Below are positions 7,809 through 55,971 of a stretch of 64,000 nucleotides of DNA, one piece after another (within the stretch, counting starts at the first letter, position 1; each line of letters opens with the position of its first letter). Source of the DNA: Paramacrobiotus metropolitanus (taxonomy: Eukaryota > Tardigrada > Eutardigrada > Parachela > Macrobiotidae); the NCBI RefSeq assembly GCF_019649055.1, contig NW_026570240.1:1116001-1180000 (forward strand), in the 5' to 3' direction. A program made the translations under genes and the position numbers. The notes beneath the pieces were generated by a model that was not told the DNA's origin, made no database searches, and saw only the letters and a list, made by a program, of their open reading frames with translations.

Positions 7809-22923
<15,115 letters not shown>

Positions 22924-30600: not shown

Positions 30601-33600
30601 GAAAACAAATAAGCTGCCGTTTAGGATCATCTGTAGCCAGTTCATACAAAACATCGGTGGCAAGTCTTCCCTTGTCACAGAGCAAATTTGTACCCGTTCT
30701 TAAATAAATATTCCAATCGCTTTCAATTTATTTTCTTCTTTTAGAGAGATACTGTTGTTCAAATATATACGGATAGGCGGATACAAGGCTGTCTTTAAAA
30801 CATATAACCACTTCAAATTCACTTGAATATATGGAAGTAAAGTGGCCAACTGAAATTCAAAATGTGTGCTAACGGACAGCGTTCAGAAGCTGCAGGAAAC
30901 CAAAATACGGAACACACAAAACCGGTCAAAAACAAAGAGATCCTTGATAGTTTCCATTCGCATGAAAATTACACTGCTGTATAACTGCCTTCAAAGATTC
31001 GGAACACGCTAATATTTCGAAATTGACAGCAAGATGTTGCGGGTCAACACTGCTAATAAGTGCCTCCATAAACGAGGGCGGTTTAAAAAACGCCACAGTT
31101 TAAGCAAAAGATTAGCATCACAATATTTTAGCATCACACATGGAAGATTAACATCACAAAATTTGTGGTGCACCGTTTAATTCGAATTCCTGTAACACCG
31201 GCAAATTTTCTCCCTAACGTCGAACCATATGTTCTGATACATGGCTGCAGCCACTTAAGATCATATGTCATCATGTACCTTCCTGAATCTCGCACATGCC
31301 GTTTCCGGCTACCGCATGTTTTATCGTCAAAGGTAAACTGATCCTGCCATAGTGTTAAGGACATCCTCACAGGCTTCGATTCGTGATACTTACAACAATT
31401 TAACAATTTGTTTGCTGGAAACGATGGTTAATTATTAATATATCGGATTTACACTGCAAATGTTTAGAACAAAAAATATGTTCTCCAAAGTGCACTAGTT
31501 TTGCGACAAAACCGAGTTTCACAAAAATAATAATGATATTTTATGAAAATTTTTACTATGCTATAACTGTCAGCTACCTGCATATAGATAAAACGATGCA
31601 GTTATTAAAGACTGGAACAGCTGAGCCAACAGTGGTGTCCACAACAGTAAATTATGTTGTAAACACTATCGCGTAATGTGCTCTAGTTTTGGTGTTGAAA
31701 TTACCATGGGATGTTGAAATGCCAATGGCTGTTCTCACAATTATTGAAATATATACATCATGCACGCCCTTAATAGCTGTTTGCAAAATAGGCACATATG
31801 CCTCGTATTCAACAGATTCCTCGTGCTCACCTCGCATAACTGTAGCGATTCGTCCAGCTGCCGTAGTTTGATCTGCAACGAAATAAATTTTATTGCAGGT
31901 TGCCGATTGAAATTTTATATATCTGTGCTCTCAAGCGAACAAAGACTGTCCCACCTTGACTGGTATTAAATGTACTTTAGTCCGCCGGAAACGGGCACTG
32001 CTCGCTCCACCACCGAACACCGCTTCAGCCACTTCTACAGCGCGCAGTGCGAATTCTTTGGCTTCGTTGTAGGATTTAAGGATGTAAAATAAACTACTGC
32101 AGGCCACGAGTGACTGCACCACTAATCCGTAATTTTTTTCTTTGGCACATATGTCGAAGGTCAATTTGAGGAATCCAACAGCTGGTGCAACTTGACTTAA
32201 TTCAAGATACGCACAGCAGATGCTCATCTACGGCAAAAGGCACGAGAGCATAAAAAATCATATTCATACTCAATAAAGTGAATAAACTCGTGGGAAGGCA
32301 AGGTCGAGAGAGCGATGGCGGATCGGCTTACATAAACATAACCGACTTTACTGACGTCCAAGTAGAGCAGGCAATTTTTGCAATACGATAGGCATAATTC
32401 CCAGTTGCCCAGTAATCCCCGGGAACTGGCCAAATTAAGGTAGGATTCGGCGATGAGATTCGTGTCGTTGAGGTATTTTCCCACTTGGAATTGCTGTACG
32501 GAGAAATTCAGCATTTTTTGGAATTGGCCGAAGTCAAATGATAAGGAGATCAGGTAATTGAGGGTGTAGAACAGCTCCCGGTTATCACAAAGGCGGGATG
32601 CTATCTGCCAGTCGCGGTAGGCGGTTTTGTAATCCTGCAACGATAAATACCGTTTAGCGCGATGACCGGACAATGGATACACTGCCATAATACGGTCCAT
32701 AAATGAGCCGTCATCTAGCCGCAGTGATTACTTTTTCGCCATATGCGCATTTCAAAATACTCAAGATCTCCAAGAGGTAATGTTATGTTACGGATGCTAT
32801 TTTCCTTTCTGTACCGGTAAATTAAATATCTCCTAAGTATTATTTTGATAAGTGAGTAACAGTGCCAAAGGGCAGATTGTTTGACGGCGACGACGGATCA
32901 ATGAAACTTGTTCGCATCGATTACATACATGTAATACGCACTTGCGGTGTATGGCATAAAAATTCCGTGTTTACTAAAGTAAACCAAGTGAAAATGCAGA
33001 CTGCACCAAGTGAAAATGCAGTCTGGTAATTGCACCTACGTTGCGCGGTGTTGCACTTTTAAATAGAATATAACTCATATCATATAACACTGTGTTACAA
33101 ATTAAATACAGAGTAAGGCAACAGCGGCCCATTATGAATTTTATAAAAATTTGATTTATCACAAAATCATAACAGTATCATCAACTTCGGAATTCTCTTA
33201 TACGCTGTTCAGTGTTATACCGATTACTGTGCATATACCGTGTTATACCGATTAGTCTGCATACGAGTATACCGTGTTATACCGTTATTTGTACATGTGC
33301 TCTGCATGATTATGCTAAAATTAATCATGAAAGTACTCCCGTGTTTTATAGATATCATTTACTTTCATCTTTACTTATTACTTATTGCTTTTATGAATAT
33401 CATTACTTACTTCCCAACTGCTCAACCTGCTTTTTTAAATATGCTATCTACAGTCAGTACGTAAAGTTTAGTTGTATATAAAACAAAGTAAAACAAAAAG
33501 ACCAACCGAACGTTCAAAAGGTTGGTTAAATAGCATAACAGAAGAAAAAGTTCAGTAATATTACAAAACAAAATCCAACAAAACCGTTTTACGTACGCCG

Positions 33601-37880: not shown

Positions 37881-40435
37881 ATGGACAATGCTACCCATAA
37901 TAATGGTCACGGGTCCAGTTATGCACTCCTTCATAGTGGATACTCAAATGCTGTCTTCCGGGAATGGCAGTCCAGCAGCACGAGTCTCGCTCCTACGAAC
38001 TTCATGTACCCGTTATTCATCCAGTAAGACATAAAATTTAGTAAAACTATTGCGCGAAAATTTAACATTTCGCATGATTGGCTTTAGAAGGACAACTGGA
38101 CGCTATTATCTGTATAACGCTATCATGAGTATGTGCTTGGGTCGGATGGTTAACGTTTATACAGAAACAATTACTTCAGTCGAAATAATTCCTTCTTGGA
38201 GCGCAGTCGTGTTAAATTTGTTTCGTGTAGTTTTTGTTTACTAGGGACGACCCCGATGGCCGCGAACCTATCCCGTCAATGAAAGGGCAGTATCGCTACG
38301 GAGTGCAACAACTGGAGAATGTCCTCACACCTCTGGTCAAAAAAGGACTCAAGTCCGTCCTTATATTCGGAATTGTGCCGAAAGCATGGAAGGTATAATA
38401 GGAGTTTCAGAACTACACAAATCATTGTATGTATGTGTAACAAATTGCTCATGATCAGCATCTGGTTTTATGTTAAAATGTGCCGATAATAATTAATGCG
38501 GTGCTAATTTCTACAAACATAGAACTTATCTTTTGTAATCAAACTTTCCATCTACATTTATAAGTCCAATATTTGTCGAATAATGCAGCATTTCCTGATG
38601 CAAATTTCCAAAAAGCCATACTACCGTACTAATTAATAACATTTTTGTAACAATTCAGTATTTACAGATAAATATCAAACGTTGCGCCATGTAAATCGCA
38701 GTACGTGACTGGTTTGTTAATTTGAAAAATTTGTACTTACTTTATGAATGCTCGTGCAAAATGCAGCGCGGGCTATAATTCTACAACAATAACGACCCAA
38801 CTCTGCACTGGCATTATTATTATGACTGTGTTATTCGAAAGAATCCGCACTTCCTAATCGAAAAAACCTCATAACTTCCTATACGTGCAGCAAAAAGTAG
38901 CATAAATATCATGTTGTAAATTGTTACAGAAGTTTAGTAGAAAAAGTGCATAAACTGCATATGATTCCAAGCATGAGTACACTGCACTAGGTGCACGGAT
39001 AAAGCCACGCCAGGCATTATATTAAGTTATATTAAATTATGCTAAATTTTACATTATATTAAATTTTACGTTCTATTTTAACTGGCGGTATGTTTTCTTG
39101 CCTGTCATATGAAGAATGCCACAACATTTAATGTGACTTTCATAATTATACACGATATTTATTGCAATGCTGGTACATCATCAGACGACACTGCAATTTT
39201 AATTAAGGATGACCGAGGATCCGGAGCAGATGCTCCACCCAGTCCTGTGTTGGTTGCTATTCGCCTTCTCCGGGAGAAGTTTCCAGATTTGGTGATTGCG
39301 TGCGATGTCTGTTTATGCCCATACACTGACCATGGACATTGTGGTAAAGAAACTTGGAAAACGCGCAATCCGAAATAAAAGAGCATTTATAAAAGGGTTC
39401 GCATTCCCCAGGAGTAATGTTATTCTTGCAGGCATCCTGCGACCGAATGGTAATCTGGATGTTGCAGCAAGCATTGCTCGTCTCGCAGAGATTGCGTTGG
39501 CATTCGCATTCGCTGGTATGTCGCGGTCACTGCCATAGATGGTCATTAATTTTTCGTTTTCATGACACTTTATTTAAATCAAGTTCTTGCAGGTGCCCAT
39601 GTTGTTGCACCTTCCGATATGATGGACGGTCGTGTTCAGGCTATCAAACAAAAACTGCGCTCATCCAGTTATGGAAACACAGTGGCTGTCTTGAGCTACA
39701 GTTCCAAATTCGCATCCTGCTTTTATGGACCGTTTCGGTGAGCACCAGCTGCGTAATGCGGCACACTAAAGTAATCTGCATGATATTCAGTGGCAGAGCA
39801 TCCGCTAACTTGAAAATTTAAGCAGATAATGATCTTTTGCCTAAAAGTAGAAATATTTAATTTATGTGTTCACAGAAAAGCCGAACGTCGCATGTATCTG
39901 TAATTTAACAATTACCATTGGCCATCACAAGTTTACGAAAATTATTATGTTGACTGGTGATTTGTGTTAGAGATGCCGCACAATCGTCGCCTTCGTTCGG
40001 TGATCGTCGAGCCTATCAGCTGCCAAACGGTAAGTAGAGTTGTCTGAGTTACTGTATTTGTGATGAAAACAAAAGGGCAGAAAAATTTTTTTCCCGATTT
40101 TCAATGGGCATTTGAAACGTGTAGGAAGCCGCGGTTTAGCCATTCGCGCAGCCGAAAGGGACGTGGCCGAAGGTGCAGACATGTTGATGGTCAAACCCGC
40201 GTTGCCTTATCTGGATATCGTACGGGATGTGAAGAATATGTTTCCCCATCATCCCTTATTCGTTTATCAGGTGTCCGGAGAATATGCAATGCTTTTATGC
40301 GCTGCCGAAGCGGGAGTTGTAAATCTGAAAGCGGCAGTCATGGAAACTTTCATCAGTATGCGCCGTGCTGGAGCTGATGTTATTATCACATATTTTGTAC
40401 CGGAAGTCTTGCAGTGGCTGCAAACCGAACAATAG
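37881..40435 (+). CDS. ALAD: Delta-aminolevulinic acid dehydratase (porphobilinogen synthase)
   Basis: Condenses two 5-aminolevulinate molecules to porphobilinogen, the second step of haem synthesis, in the cytosol as an octamer. Seven exons: 37881-38023, 38245-38392, 39208-39343, 39432-39515, 39593-39737, 39971-40029, 40125-40435; phases agree, 341 residues (human 330). The two active-site lysines are present: Lys209 in [10 protein letters not shown] and Lys262 in [14 protein letters not shown], the Schiff-base residue. The zinc ligands Cys132, Cys134 and Cys142 ([14 protein letters not shown]) mark it as the animal zinc-dependent type. The ATG at 37881 has a good context (AAAATGG) and matches the family's N-terminus ([18 protein letters not shown]); an in-frame ATG at 37830 is possible. 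Intron 2 (38393-39207) is the only long one and shows nothing recognisable. Confidence 0.96.
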
Positions 40436-42499: not shown

Positions 42500-46673
<4,174 letters not shown>

Positions 46674-48110: not shown

Positions 48111-50074
48111 ATGCATATGTCAGAGCGTACTCGCTATACTATTTGTTTCTTTGTAACAGTTTATGCCACAAGTATCAACATACCGACAAAGGATGCCGAC
48201 GGACAATTCATAAGTGACCTATCTGGAAATGGTCGGCCCAATAATAATAATCGGATGCCTCCTTCCGCTTTTCAAGACGGTCGTTTGAAATTATTACTAC
48301 ATGGTAATTAGCAAGCAATTGCTGGTACACGGCTGAGTGTAACCCACGAAAGCTATTGGACGATGTTTGACTTTTAGCTTTTATAACCAAACTATCAGAG
48401 GAAATGCGGAGCGATCCGGAAATCGGTATGAATCCAAAACAATGTAAGTCCACCTTCTTATGCAGCATAGTTACAATCTATGGCTTTGTCCGTCATCTTG
48501 AATTTATATTCGCCAGAATTCGGAAAGCATGAACTAGAATAGCCTTCGAATTTTGATTACTAAGAATTTAAGCTATACTTTCTTACAACCCAGTAAGACC
48601 GAGGAATATTAATTAGATAGTACAGCTAGGTAGTAATCAAGTGGGATAATATTAGCTTGAATATTTATATACTGCTCGTAGTGACCGTTTTTATTATGAC
48701 CGTTCGGACATAGTCAGGGTACGAGTATCATCTTTGAAACCTAAATTTTTACATTTTTTGACTGTGAACAGTCTGTGGTATAAACGGTCAATAGTAATTC
48801 TGTTTCCACCGAGACGACAAATGAACAGACTGTTATTGACAATTTTGGATTCCAAGATTAGTACTGGGAGCAGTGAAATCCACCCTGCTCTTGACGTACA
48901 AACCCCAAATATAGAATAGCTGGTATAATCCCGATTTAGTACTGATTACTTTAGCATAACAAGTTCCGTATTTAGCCGAATTCCTACTCCACCGATTACG
49001 GGGTTTGTACAACCACTTGAAAGACCATCCGGCACTAATGGATAGTCGATTATCCGTTGGCCGTCCATTGGAGCTCCCACCGGAAGTATCCGTCGCCGGC
49101 GTCAGGAGTGATGCAGCAATAACCGATAACAATTCCGACGATTTCGCGCGTATAATCCGGAAGCGCAAACTTGAGCTGCCGCTTACGGAAGCTTGCCCTT
49201 CCGTAACCGAGTGGCTTTCATTGGTGTGTATATTCAGCCCTGACCTTTCTTATGTCTTAAGTGACTTCAGGCTCTTTTATGTCAATTTCGTTTTACTTAC
49301 TTGCCATAACATGGCTAACTGGGCAATTTTTTTCGCATTTTAGAACAAAAGTCGCGATATTCACGATGAGGAAGTGGAAGTGTTCCAGCCCCAAGGGGAT
49401 CCAGGAAGCGATGAAGAATCTCAGCTCGGAGCTCAGGTAGGTCGACCGGATCGCCAGGTAAAGGACTGTTTATCATATGCAGCGATCTAATGGCACGTAG
49501 AGAAACGTCTGAAATGAAGTTTTTTATTTTGTAGTACTTCTATACGACACGGTGTATAAACGGTGTAGAAAATGAGCCCTGCGTCGGATCATCAAGTTTT
49601 TACACGAGTCGATGCGTTACACGAGTAAGGTTGTTCACAAAATCCCGTAATCCGCTTAAGGTCACGTATTGACCTGATCTACAACTCACGTAAGAAAAGG
49701 CAGCTTGAGTTGGTTGAAATTGAGCCTGATGTCAATTAGAAAACAACTTATTTTAACATGGAATTAGCGCGATATCAATTAAGATAGTGCTTTTCAAATT
49801 AAAAGTGTATCATGAGTAATAAACCCTTATCCATGCATGGATCGCTTACGCTGGTCTTTGTATAGAAGGGTTATGTTATGGCGCTCGTTCGAAAGAAGCC
49901 GACTGAGTTGTTCGATTGGAACTGGATCCAGGTGGGATAATAAGAATAATTGCAAATCTGCAGTGCATATCCCGAATTCACGAAACCTTTACTTAATTAT
50001 GCTCACCATAAAAAAAAGTTTTCTTGTTCCAGGTTGCTGTCAGCTGTAATTGCGGTGTACGCAAGAAGTTCTGA
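48111..50074 (+). CDS. Neurotrophin-like secreted growth-factor precursor (NGF/Spaetzle cystine-knot superfamily)
   Basis: Likely secreted ligand for Trk/p75- or Toll-type receptors. Seven exons: 48111-48303, 48378-48425, 48976-49223, 49344-49436, 49535-49624, 49866-49931, 50033-50074; phases agree, 259 residues (NGF precursors are about 240). Residues 1-20 look like a signal peptide (YTICFFVTVYATS core). A pro-region follows, with a basic processing site IIRKRK at 140-145. The mature part starts LELPLTEACPSVTEW and has six cysteines, 154, 201, 210, 221, 251 and 253, the neurotrophin number and order. Matching blocks are CPSVTEWLSLNKSRDIHDEE, QYFYTTRC and DWNWIQVAVSCNC. Cys-x-Cys at the end and the QYFY-RC motif favour neurotrophin. 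The spacing Cys-x10-Cys and SRC resemble Spaetzle, so the exact branch is open. Exon 4 has an alternative donor at 49457 that adds seven residues in frame. Confidence 0.82.
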
Positions 50075-50759: not shown

Positions 50760-53700
50760 TCATTTTCCGGCATCGCTAACAATAGTCGGCGTGTCGAAGA
50801 TGGATCTCATGTCCAACATAGCTTGTCGGATTCTTCCCCGGAAACGGTCGGAATCCTGCAGTACATTTCCTTTATTACAAACTATTCCACAAACCAAGAA
50901 GCAAAGAACGACTTACTGTTTTAGGTGAAGATGCCTTAGAAGAAATGTGGAAGAAAATACAATTTTCTCCAGAAATAATATACGACACGCCATATCCATC
51001 ATCGGCAACCTAGAGCGAAAGTACGATAGGAATAGCATTGGTAACTTGATCAACAAGGACGAAAAAACAGACGAAGTCGTACCGGACCAAATCCACCGCC
51101 AGGTGACACCTGATCCGGATATTTGTTTACGTCTACTCTACCGGTTTGAGTTTGAGGCGTCTGAAAATATAATATTTGGGGGCCATGAAGTACGAGGCCG
51201 TCCAGTTAAGGGTGTACCTGGCTAGTTGATAAGCGCCACGGTTCGCTCAGGATTTCTTTCAAGAATGGCGTGTCGATATCCAGATATTTAGACACCACGT
51301 ACAAACAAAACAGATGACGATCAATGCCCCGTCCACACATAGCATTCAGGTAGCCTTGCTGATGCACGTCACAAGCAGTACGCAGCAGCCTTTGGCGCTC
51401 GAAATTCTATGCCGCAATGGAATCAGGATAATTTTTACTAATTCAATAATTGCAGTTTTAAGTCAATCTTTATTTTTTTATGCACAATGCTGTAAAATAG
51501 AAAAGGACCCATACACACGCCCTTACTAAACCCCCTGCTAAGAGTTCAGTCTACGTTCAGCTTACAGTGGCCTTTTCGTCCAACATGGCGCGCACAAAGG
51601 CACACGACTCCACAGTACATGGACGCACGGTCTCCGTCCGGCCTTCACGGAATAGACGAGTCATGGAAGCTTCATAGGTTAGATTGAACTTCCCCGCATC
51701 CTTTCAGTAATATCAGGAACATATTTATTTCTGTTAACATGTTTCTTAACAAAACAAAAACTTACCCGATAATATGCCAGTTGCAGTGCCATTTGTACGA
51801 ATGCATCCGGACTCACTTTGCACCCTTTAACAAATCCTTTGCCGAATTCATTGAATGTCAAGATCCTCAAATCCACGTCATCGCACGCAAGCTTAGCAGT
51901 TAAAGCGCTGTCTTCGATAAACTTCAAACACTAAATAATCGATTAACAAGTAAGCTCACAAGATGTCATTGTCAGATGGCAGTGATCCGTAAATGTTTTT
52001 GTTTCTTTTAATAAGTATGCCAGCAACAAACTTAAGGGTCAAGACTTACTTCATCTGGCAACTCAAATCTCAAGCGCTGTGGTGGCGTTGGAAAAACCTC
52101 CACGGAACCTTTACAATGCCCATCTGCAGTATAACCCAGGAAGACCAGATCTTCCGTGATAACCCATTCCCAAGCATGCCCAATAACTGGCGCATCCGCC
52201 CTGAAAAAGGGTCAAGGATACAGGAAGAAATATTACGGTACTGAAATGCGAAATTACCAAGAGTGTTCCACGTTCAGACCGGCCTAGAAATTTATCAACA
52301 AATTTCATCAACGTTTAATGAATACGGCACAAATAAAGGTTTCAGGACTGTCGTCACTTACTTTGGCGTTCTTCATAACAATCAGGTTGAAGGACTTATC
52401 GTACCATCGATTGTGCCCGTTGCCGTGCAAAAGCCACTTACAGTACGCATCTAAGTGGGATGGATCAATCTAAAACGAGCCAAAAATAACATTCAGCATC
52501 ACAAGTAGCTATTTCTGGGGCGCTCCTTCTAAAGGTATAAAGAGCACCTTGTCGTAGTGGTGCTCTTCGTCGTCCAATGCCACAAAGAATGCCGCCTAAA
52601 AACGAGCACGATTGTTTCACTCTCGGGGGTAGTGCACAAATGGTTACATCGAACGCCGCAGAATTACTTACTCTTTCGATCGTTTCCAACGACACTCGGT
52701 TTACGCCACGATTAAAAAATGCGCGACGATTCTGCGCCCAAGGCGCTCTACAAACAGCGATCCAGAATTCGCAAGAATCAACCACACCATATCAAAGTAA
52801 CAGTAACAAATTCGAAGAAACAAACTGCATACGTTTTGATTTCCATAAAACTCAATTAAAGACTTAACTTTCTCATTAACAACGAAATTACCATGCGTAA
52901 AAACCATACAAACAGCAATTTCACCAAAAAGGGCTAGTACTAATTTGATAATAACAAAACAGCGACAGAGAAGCTCGTGAACGTACACCTCATGTACCAC
53001 TTTTTAGAAAACGAAACTTTAAGTTTTCCAAATTTTTTTATTCAGTGAAGGGTAGTGCCAAACACATTAACAAATTAACTTGATATGAAAATGTGAATAC
53101 AATCGTCATAATCACAGCCAAGAGAAACGGAAACACATAAACGCTTAAGGGGAACCGGAAATAGCATACCTGTCAACCGCGGTCATCGCACACAATAGTT
53201 GTTCTCCAGGTTGTGCAGGAGATGTATCATGGATTACACGTTCGATTTGCCTACAAAACGAAAGGGATATGTCGGCCGACCAACGCATAATTTGATTAAT
53301 TATAACATATCACTTTATAAGATTACAAACCACTAAGTGCACAATCTTACATTTCCAACTCTTTCGGATTGAGCAACCTTCCTTTTCCATGAGTGTATAC
53401 TTTAAAGAAACGACCTTTGTGCAGCACGACAACGTGGGTACTGTTGTAATAGTGGTCAACCTTATCTAAACAGAAATCAATTGATTAATTTCAACAGAAA
53501 TTGTTAGATACTCTAAAAGCAAACGCTTTTAACCGAAGTAGCGATGAAAATCATACTAAATTCGTATATCTATGCAACCTAAAAGGGTTACAACATCTCA
53601 TCGCTATTAAATTTCCACTTTACCAGTTTCCACTCCTGGAATACGGCAAGTGTCGAAAGATCTCATGTACTGCCAGGAGCACAACGGAATCGTTCCATCA

Positions 53701-55971
53701 AGCAGTAGCTAAATAACCACGGAAACGATCACCAGAAGGTCACACAAACCTTCTCAGAACACATTTTAAATACCGGATTGACATCCTGCTTTACAAGCAT
53801 TCTCCTGAATGTCAAGAAGTTGTAAATTAGGTTTGCAGCCCTGGAAGCTTGCCTGGTAGTTGGGGGCATGTGCAGAGAATCCTGAATTTTAACAAACAGC
53901 ATTTTCACAGGCGTCATGATAACCCATATAATCACGATCTACCATTGCGTAGAAATTGCTGTTGATCATTAACGCCGATCGATTTCGCAGGTACACATAT
54001 TGTTCCCACCAGTCGGAGACCTACAATCAAACATGTTCAACTTCTGAAATCCAAATCATCGCATTTTATGAACTCTCTGGTTTCCGTAATTATACACAAA
54101 CTCTCACAACAGATGTATAGACACACTGATATTTCTGTAAAAGTTGTGATGCGGTGATTAAAAGTATTTCTTCGCTCACATAATTGGTCGAAACCATCCA
54201 CTTCAAAAACAGATAGCGCTGAAATTTGCGCCCGACTCCATTCTGGAATTCCTTCGCGAGCTTTTCCATCCGTTCATAGTTGGCATCGTCCAACAAAGGT
54301 CGCACGGATCGCAAATACTGTAACCAAAAAACCTGAATCAGCGAACTTCAAAATACTTACTGTACTCGATTTCAGACAAATATAGCACCTATAAAATTAA
54401 AATTCAAATAAATTCGTAACGAGCTCAATGGCCAAAAAAACTGTGGCCAGCTAACAGAAAAACGAGCTATTCACATATTTAGCTCAGCAAAATCTATAAA
54501 CCTATACCCGTGTCATCGTCTCTTTTAAAGATGGAAGCGGCAAAATGGGCATCATCCCTTGATAACTGTACAGCAATGGTTTCCGCTTCCCTTGCAGTAG
54601 TTTCATCAGGATCTGAAACAACCACCAATAATAACAAGTTGTACTAACTTGATATGCCAATAACTTAATGTCAACAACATTGGGAAACAATGATAATTAT
54701 CGCAAGTACCGTACAAACAGTACGTACAGACTCTTCACTCGTACCGCTTTTACAGCGTTTATATGGTACAGAATCCATACGTCTATGTATAGCACAAGTC
54801 TGCAATACCTCATTCACAATTTTGTTCATTTAGAACACATCATAAGTTCTGTGGACCACGCAATACTACTGTTTAGGCGTCTCGTCATGAGACGAAAGAA
54901 AATCACGATATCATGTGCCATAAGTATTTCCTGTCTATGCTCGCAGTCGTTAACGAAGACAGGGGCGTTGTCTCATAACTTACAAACCACAATTTCGTCT
55001 TTAAGGAATATCGTCCGCGCCGTTCGAAGAGAGCACCGCGATAGCTTAACAACAGTTGTGTCATCCATCGTATAGCAAAAATGATGATAACCCATTCAGC
55101 AGTCGAAATGGTTACTGCGCTAATAATTACAGATTTGCTGGGCCCAAAGAGTTTCCTGCAAATATAATAATATGGAAATTCATTGTAACTAAATCCAAAC
55201 TGAATTCTTTTACGAAAACATCTGTTTAGACCGGATCACAATCACAATTTTAATTCTCGCATCTCGAGTAACTAGTTTAACAAAACTTTACACACAAGCC
55301 CCGGAGCACTTAGCACATACTAAAAATTCAACGACAGTTTGTATTTTGTTTGCATTCTTAAAAAATTACGTATTTCCCAATCACGGGTGGAGTTATTAAG
55401 AAATTTTCATATTGTTTAACGTTAAGATACGACCGAAGAAGGCAGGTTTACAAAAAGTTTTAATTCCTATATCTTACAAAAAAACAATGACCTGTTCCGC
55501 TGTACAAATCAAATTTGTAGCCGGAAGGAAGCCACACAAAAATGTTACAAGTCAACGTACCACGGTGTCAAAGTTGCCAGCTTTTGAGCATATCCGAAAG
55601 TTGGGTCAAAATGGAAATTGACTTTCCCGAAACCCAGCTGCTGCAGGTAGCTTGACGGATCGGTTACCGCGAGAGCTGACGTCAGAACAATCACCGCGGT
55701 GGCCGAAGACAGCGTAAATGGGAAAACGACATTCTTAATGTTGTTCTGAAATCAATTTCAGAACGTCACCGAAAGTGAAGCACAATCCTTACTGAAGCTC
55801 CAATCATGGAATATCAAACAGGCAGTTTACCAGAAATCGGACCAAACGGTAGCGCCAAGACCTTCCGTACGTATGCAGGATTTCCCGCACCAGATCTTGA
55901 TCGTAGTCCACCCGAACCCCTTCATGGGTGACGTTGAACTGGAATGCGACGGCCAAGTGGGCTTCGGCCAT
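50760..55971 (-). CDS. CPT1: Carnitine O-palmitoyltransferase 1
   Basis: Mitochondrial outer-membrane enzyme that converts long-chain acyl-CoA to acylcarnitine, the entry step of fatty-acid oxidation. Twenty-one exons: 55971-55831, 55745-55549, 55155-54984, 54612-54508, 54317-54180, 54020-53943, 53881-53750, 53669-53624, 53465-53351, 53250-53170, 52747-52672, 52595-52548, 52469-52362, 52283-52258, 52200-52050, 51930-51766, 51700-51566, 51406-51218, 51160-51083, 51009-50917, 50855-50760. All phases agree, giving 789 residues (human CPT1A 773). The N-terminus [15 protein letters not shown] matches CPT1, the segment carrying the malonyl-CoA-sensing regulatory region. Two membrane segments lie near residues 55-76 and 121-140. 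The catalytic histidine is His486 in [30 protein letters not shown] and [20 protein letters not shown] follow, then SPGGGFGP. The membrane anchors separate it from CPT2 and acetyltransferases. The end of exon 2 is the least certain junction. Confidence 0.95.

Follow-up and report, generated by a model that had tools for sequence, protein, structure and literature searches.

Does the locus studied here, in the genome of the tardigrade Paramacrobiotus metropolitanus, encode a neurotrophin, and does the same genome hold a receptor through which its product could act? A preliminary description had seen in it a neurotrophin-like ligand with Spaetzle-like spacing, a mixture that might inform how the two ligand families split. 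Among protostomes, neurotrophins have been reported in Daphnia, two ticks, annelids, and molluscs (PMC7535936, PMC2772990, PMC4812194), so that the view taken in that description, that they are known only patchily, is a fair one, although their presence in these groups is established. According to PMC2772990, no neurotrophin orthologue was obtained from flies, and they seem to have lost full Trk (PMC4812194). What makes the present case of interest is that an arthropod relative has both ligand and receptor, while flies apparently have neither and the ligands of C. elegans escape recognition by sequence alone. Tardigrade nervous systems are small, and thus the role of a neurotrophin-Trk module could be tested in them.

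No report of a tardigrade neurotrophin was found in the literature searched, where the data set of one study (PMC7535936, eLife) is described as including tardigrades; the gene may still stand in NCBI's genome annotation. Tardigrada, apparently an unreported phylum in this respect, appears to join the phyla having a neurotrophin and Trk pair. The reading favoured here, which we consider highly probable, is that the locus is a neurotrophin gene of P. metropolitanus, and that its product would be a secreted, dimeric Trk ligand.

Structure of the gene and of its predicted product

The window, that is, the whole stretch of DNA analysed, comprises 64,000 nucleotides, and the positions given below are counted in it. 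Its tardigrade origin agrees with primers printed in PMC8277472 for the TPS-TPP-2 gene of Paramacrobiotus sp. TYO, a strain now assigned to P. metropolitanus (PMC11191345): the forward primer has a single exact match in the genome, and the reverse primer, sought in the stretch L002, is located some 3.65 kb downstream of it in the expected orientation, the intervening reading frames resembling, by eye, trehalose-6-phosphate synthase. A nematode origin had been considered and was rejected, as the SL1 spliced-leader pattern had no match and the presence of delta-aminolevulinic acid dehydratase in the window speaks against it. The gene lies on the plus strand (48111-50074) and, as read from the DNA sequence alone, has six coding exons and five junctions, all of them GT-AG, with a product of 243 aa. 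The existence of a real gene, with exons, cysteines, and motifs as first described, is confirmed, with some corrections: the product had been given as 259 residues and the junctions as six, and the span proposed (48976-50074) contains exons 2-6 but misses exon 1 and its signal-peptide-like segment.

Exon 1 (48111..48303) starts with an ATG preceded by an in-frame stop, encodes the signal-peptide-like segment (about 48111-48164) and the start of the pro-region, and ends at the donor GTAATT, with an intron of phase 1. The most hydrophobic stretch of the precursor corresponds to residues 10-20, as would be expected of a signal peptide. Exon 2 (48976..49223) encodes the remaining pro-region, the polybasic site, Cys I, and the VTEW block. 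The polybasic site, RKRK (49158..49169), lies inside ARIIRKRKLE and represents residues 126-129 of the precursor; the mature chain would start LELPLTEACPSV, leaving 114 residues with exactly six cysteines. The product has a hydrophobic start that may be a signal peptide and, in RKRK, a putative cleavage site, which fits the minimal convertase pattern, R-x-x-R, and not the canonical R-x-K/R-R of furin.

The SRDIHDEEVEV block is encoded by exon 3 (49344..49436), which holds an aspartate aligned with mammalian Asp30, and Cys II, III, and IV by exon 4 (49535..49624; YFYTTRC...EPC...TSRC). Exon 5 (49866..49931) contributes GYVMAL and the DWNWIQ block, with the neurotrophin-diagnostic Trp, and exon 6 (50033..50074) contributes VAVSCNCGVRKKF, with Cys V and Cys VI, and the stop. 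The introns measure 672, 120, 98, 241, and 101 bases (phases 1, 0, 0, 0, 0) and their GC content is 0.34-0.42, against 0.40-0.53 in the exons.

As originally proposed, the cystine-knot domain is spread over five small exons, Cys I being in exon 2, Cys II-IV in exon 4, the Trp block in exon 5, and Cys V-VI in exon 6. The neurotrophin order of the six cysteines also holds: all of them align with those of NT-3, the last two form a terminal CxC, and their spacing is 46-8-10-29-1, against 42-9-11-28-1 in NT-3. Taking into account that the mature part has exactly six cysteines, none would be spare for a disulphide-linked dimer.

Chance and copy number

Since the joining of exons is a choice, a control with random joins was carried out. 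Phase-open GT/AG joins were drawn from the rest of the window, on both strands, 75,598 being obtained of the 200,000 aimed for; the best of them reached 11.4 bits against NT-3, whereas the neurotrophin gene reaches 33.7. Likewise, when all residues but the cysteines were shuffled, in 2,000 rounds, no alignment with NT-3 scored above 67, against 112 for the gene. The match to neurotrophins is, therefore, more than chance.

These data bear on the proposal that the gene could have decayed or not be expressed, or that the model could be an artefact in which chance frames have been joined. Exon 1, for which splice sites and hydrophobicity are the whole basis and which is the least certain exon of the model, could be cited in its favour, as could the fact that no single exon matched PF00243. 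Against this, the joined frame is open across its 243 codons, with neither stop nor frameshift, its junctions are canonical, its six cysteines are in register, and no random join came near its score. This alternative is regarded as extremely improbable.

The genome (169,799,020 bases in 533 contigs) was searched exon by exon with PF00243, and zero matches were obtained, this gene included; the control also gave none. Having missed this gene, the search indicates that single exons are too weak and that the signal depends on joining. In a further search of the genome, five of the six matches were exons of this gene, the sixth having an E of 0.146. No close second copy was found by this exon-by-exon genome search, which diverged copies could escape.

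Family identity

The preliminary description had suggested comparing the product with the neurotrophin and Spaetzle profiles. Against the NGF family of Pfam (PF00243), for which the curated cut-off is 27, the joined product scores 48.8 bits (E 8.6e-13), and no other Pfam family, including Spaetzle (PF16077), was found for it up to E 10; a model shorter by one residue scored 43.1 bits against the NGF family. In the PDB search, NT-3 was the best match, followed by BDNF, venom NGF, NT-4, and NGF, and all 16 matches up to E 10 were neurotrophins or the NGF-like OIF. In the alignment with NT-3, which includes all six cysteines, 36 of the 95 aligned residues are identical. The profile and this alignment support the claim that a neurotrophin-type cystine-knot ligand precursor is encoded in this protostome.

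Sites separating neurotrophin from Spaetzle were described in 2009 by Wilson (PMC2772990), Asp18 being given there as typical of canonical neurotrophins. At these sites, taken from the text of that paper and mapped by us on the NT-3 alignment, the tardigrade product shows the neurotrophin states: no Pro13, Trp130, Ile133 (where neurotrophins have Ile or Val), no Pro136, and Asp18. None of the Spaetzle marks (a PF16077 match, Pro13, an aromatic residue at 133, or Pro136) is present in it.

The consensus motif quoted for vertebrate neurotrophins in the same paper (PMC2772990), [GSRE]-C-[KRL]-G-[LIVT]-[DE]-x(3)-[YW]-x-S-x-C, is not matched, the tardigrade sequence in the Cys III-IV loop being PCVGSSSFYTSRC. 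As this consensus is a vertebrate signature, the mismatch excludes the vertebrate neurotrophin subgroup only. The corresponding loop of NT-3 is longer by one residue. In the NT-3 alignment, the position of NGF Arg103 is occupied by Gln (WIR is replaced by WIQ). In NGF this arginine is a main Trk contact, and thus a vertebrate-like Trk contact is not to be assumed for the tardigrade protein.

Spaetzle and Toll in the same genome

Neurotrophins and the Spaetzle family (PF16077) belong to the same cystine-knot superfamily, although their profiles and most of their diagnostic residues differ. The search of the genome with PF16077 gave 18 matches, 17 of them flagged as passing the cut-off, 15 by the score of the match itself, which were grouped by us into 13 separate places; six loci (L035-L040) of these 13 places were read for comparison. 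A Toll-type LRR-TIR gene, for which the preliminary description had proposed to look, is also found, the TIR search of the genome giving one match.

Taking into account these genes, the locus could be thought to encode a divergent Spaetzle acting as a Toll ligand, or a hybrid predating the split of the two families. The existence of the LRR-TIR gene is compatible with this idea, and so is the Cys III-IV spacing of 10 residues, which the neurotrophin shares with four Spaetzle loci out of the six read, against 11 in NT-3. However, all seven Spaetzle pieces scanned, coming from the six loci, match PF16077 first, whereas the tardigrade neurotrophin gives no such match up to E 10; one of the seven has, in addition, a weak NGF match of 16.2 bits, below the cut-off. 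The C-terminal pieces lead to the same conclusion, the four that were read being, by eye, of the type FRIPTACDC or FKIPDGCEC, with Phe and Pro where the neurotrophin has Ile and Ala.

Two further marks are less general. The Pro located nine residues after Cys I is kept in three of four Spaetzle loci and is replaced by Leu in the neurotrophin, and a phase-2 intron interrupting the codon that follows Cys II, seen in the three joined Spaetzle loci (L037, L038, and L040), is absent from the neurotrophin; L039 has an acceptor compatible with such an intron. But L035 has Ile in place of the Pro and no interruption after Cys II, which speaks for the Spaetzle alternative insofar as neither mark is universal among the Spaetzle loci of this genome. 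The possibility that the neurotrophin and Spaetzle genes share an intron, and with it a common structure, was also considered and rejected, the neurotrophin being without this phase-2 intron. An extra cysteine is found within the III-IV loop in three of the six Spaetzle loci (L036, L038, and L039).

The decision between neurotrophin and Spaetzle is thus carried by the profile and the C-terminal residues, and an identity as Spaetzle, or as a hybrid, is judged very unlikely. The Spaetzle-like spacing noted from the beginning stands as far as Cys-x10-Cys is concerned, and appears to be the one Spaetzle-like trait confirmed; being one residue in one loop, it is weak evidence, and it is outweighed by the rest, so that a mixture of families does not follow from it and the hybrid reading is rejected. 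Similarly, the idea that the gene could bear on how neurotrophin and Spaetzle split finds no support, since neurotrophin states occupy the separating sites and the Spaetzle genes lie elsewhere.

Spaetzle and Toll have been described in tardigrades, without the intracellular Toll pathway, in PMC7056985. It can be observed here that an expanded Spaetzle set (13 places) coexists with one LRR-TIR Toll gene in a phylum reported in that paper as being without this intracellular pathway.

Trk and TNFR candidates

The preliminary description had also suggested looking for Trk and p75 homologues in the same genome, and Trk gene pieces, namely the kinase, the Ig exons, and the motifs, were found. The pattern RWMPPE occurs at 27 places, 24 of them tyrosine-kinase-like by eye; three (L011, L012, and L027) are not kinases, and two of the kinase-like places (L009 and L010) have broken frames. 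The kinase-like places (within L003-L029) lie on several contigs, with clusters of six on contig C98, three on C9, and three on C139, and represent an expanded and diverged kinase family.

The Trk locus, on contig C104, reads RDLATRNCLVG...DLYSSDYYK...RWMPPES. Among the best 60 of 809 matches, its C-lobe exon gives 164.6 bits with TrkA, 163.8 with TrkB, and 161.5 with TrkC, against 138.6 with MuSK and 132.2 with ROR1. As to the N-lobe exon, the 27 best of the 37 matches listed, with at least 86.3 bits, are 24 TrkA/B/C entries and three named "tyrosine-protein kinase receptor", the next one having 73.4. Upstream of the kinase, two Ig exons over the Pfam cut-off, a hydrophobic segment, and IENPSYF were found, and the last kinase stretch ends in YTDVIEH, so that Ig domains, IENPSYF, and C-terminal tyrosine follow in order. 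The second Ig exon scores 22.6 bits with TrkC and 19.4 with TrkB, but many other Ig proteins score higher with it, so that it is assigned to Trk by its location within the gene. No LRR was recognised by Pfam in this gene, in which LRR-type cysteine clusters are seen by eye. The gene is known as separate open stretches and not as one joined model. The Trk of Daphnia, as described in PMC2772990, has two Ig domains, a Shc tyrosine, DIYSSDYYK, and a C-terminal tyrosine, and the tardigrade pieces carry the same set.

Contig C7 carries a TNFR gene whose cysteine-rich domains number three, as is also given for Daphnia p75 (PMC4812194); its best PDB match is osteoprotegerin (47.0 bits), with p75 close behind (45.0). 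This gene (L048, C7:1246500-1256400) occupies about 1232-1958 in L048 and has a signal-peptide-like start. A second candidate, on C20 (L049), has a single cysteine-rich domain. No death domain was found in ten selected open stretches (eight from L048, including two cysteine-rich ones, and two from L049), and none of the six matches of a death-domain search of the genome falls on C7. Therefore, a TNFR with three cysteine-rich domains does exist, but p75 is not established.

The C7 gene, together with the Gln that replaces the arginine presumed to contact Trk, could suggest a protein that is a neurotrophin by descent and whose receptor is not Trk but a TNFR-type or other molecule. We consider this unlikely, since the genome carries Trk gene pieces whose motifs are conserved; as to the TNFR, the genome search found no death domain near it, and its best match is osteoprotegerin and not p75. 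The receptor type first proposed gains support from the Trk pieces co-occurring with the ligand, and the binding of one to the other may be inferred.

Proposed mode of action

According to the reading favoured here, that of a neurotrophin acting on Trk, a pre-pro-protein would be made and its signal peptide removed, and a proprotein convertase would cut at the polybasic site, releasing a mature chain of about 114 residues. This chain would fold into an NGF-type cystine knot with the pairing I-IV, II-V, III-VI, which we take from NGF, and two mature chains would form a non-covalent homodimer. The dimer could then bind the second Ig domain of the Trk encoded elsewhere in the genome, and binding would drive autophosphorylation of the kinase (DLYSSDYYK loop) and signalling via the IENPSYF and C-terminal tyrosine sites, probably with a neural role.

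That a neurotrophin and Trk pieces occur here together with distinct Spaetzle and Toll genes speaks for the idea that the two ligand families had separated by the time of the panarthropod ancestor, and that absences of neurotrophin or Trk elsewhere reflect later losses. The same early distinction between neurotrophin and Spaetzle had been suggested from Daphnia (PMC2772990). A further proposal, to which we give even chances, is that a module of one ligand and one Trk has been kept beside the expanded Spaetzle set, that the Gln found where vertebrates have the main Trk-contact arginine may reflect joint change of the ligand and its receptor, and that this pair represents a panarthropod form close to the ancestral one.

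Comparison with known systems

Among the closest systems described is Dappu-NT of Daphnia pulex (PMC2772990), likewise a panarthropod pre-pro-neurotrophin with six coding exons, a split knot, six cysteines, and a Trk in the genome. According to the published description, however, its knot is encoded by four exons, instead of the five of the tardigrade gene, and its cleavage site is different. With vertebrate NT-3, BDNF, NGF, and NT-4 (PDB 1bnd, 1b8m, 1bet, and others), the tardigrade product shares a co-linear knot, the Trp and Ile diagnostic sites, and the equivalent of Asp30. Vertebrate neurotrophins nevertheless carry the consensus loop motif and Arg103, both missing from the tardigrade product, and their precursor is encoded by one large exon (PMC2772990) and not by six.

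The neurotrophins of annelids and molluscs (PMC4812194, and Aplysia, cited there) are also protostome proteins accompanied by Trk, although lophotrochozoan; in Platynereis (PMC4812194), the cleavage site is a canonical RSKR and p75 is described as having four cysteine-rich domains and a death domain. C. elegans, with TRK-1 and cystine-knot ligands (PMC13174251), resembles the tardigrade as an ecdysozoan with Trk and ligands of this type, but in the nematode, according to that paper, vertebrate neurotrophins have no apparent homologue by sequence, whereas the tardigrade gene is one by its sequence.

Neighbouring genes

Some other genes can be recognised in the window. Directly downstream of the neurotrophin gene, on the minus strand, there is a carnitine O-acyltransferase-type gene (51679-54347), three of whose four open stretches scanned match PF00755. 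Upstream, a delta-aminolevulinic acid dehydratase exon (40067-40435) and an MCM5 exon (44645-45319) are located on the plus strand, while a Rapsyn-N-like exon (32224-32727) and a cyclic nucleotide phosphodiesterase exon (7893-8552) are found on the minus strand.
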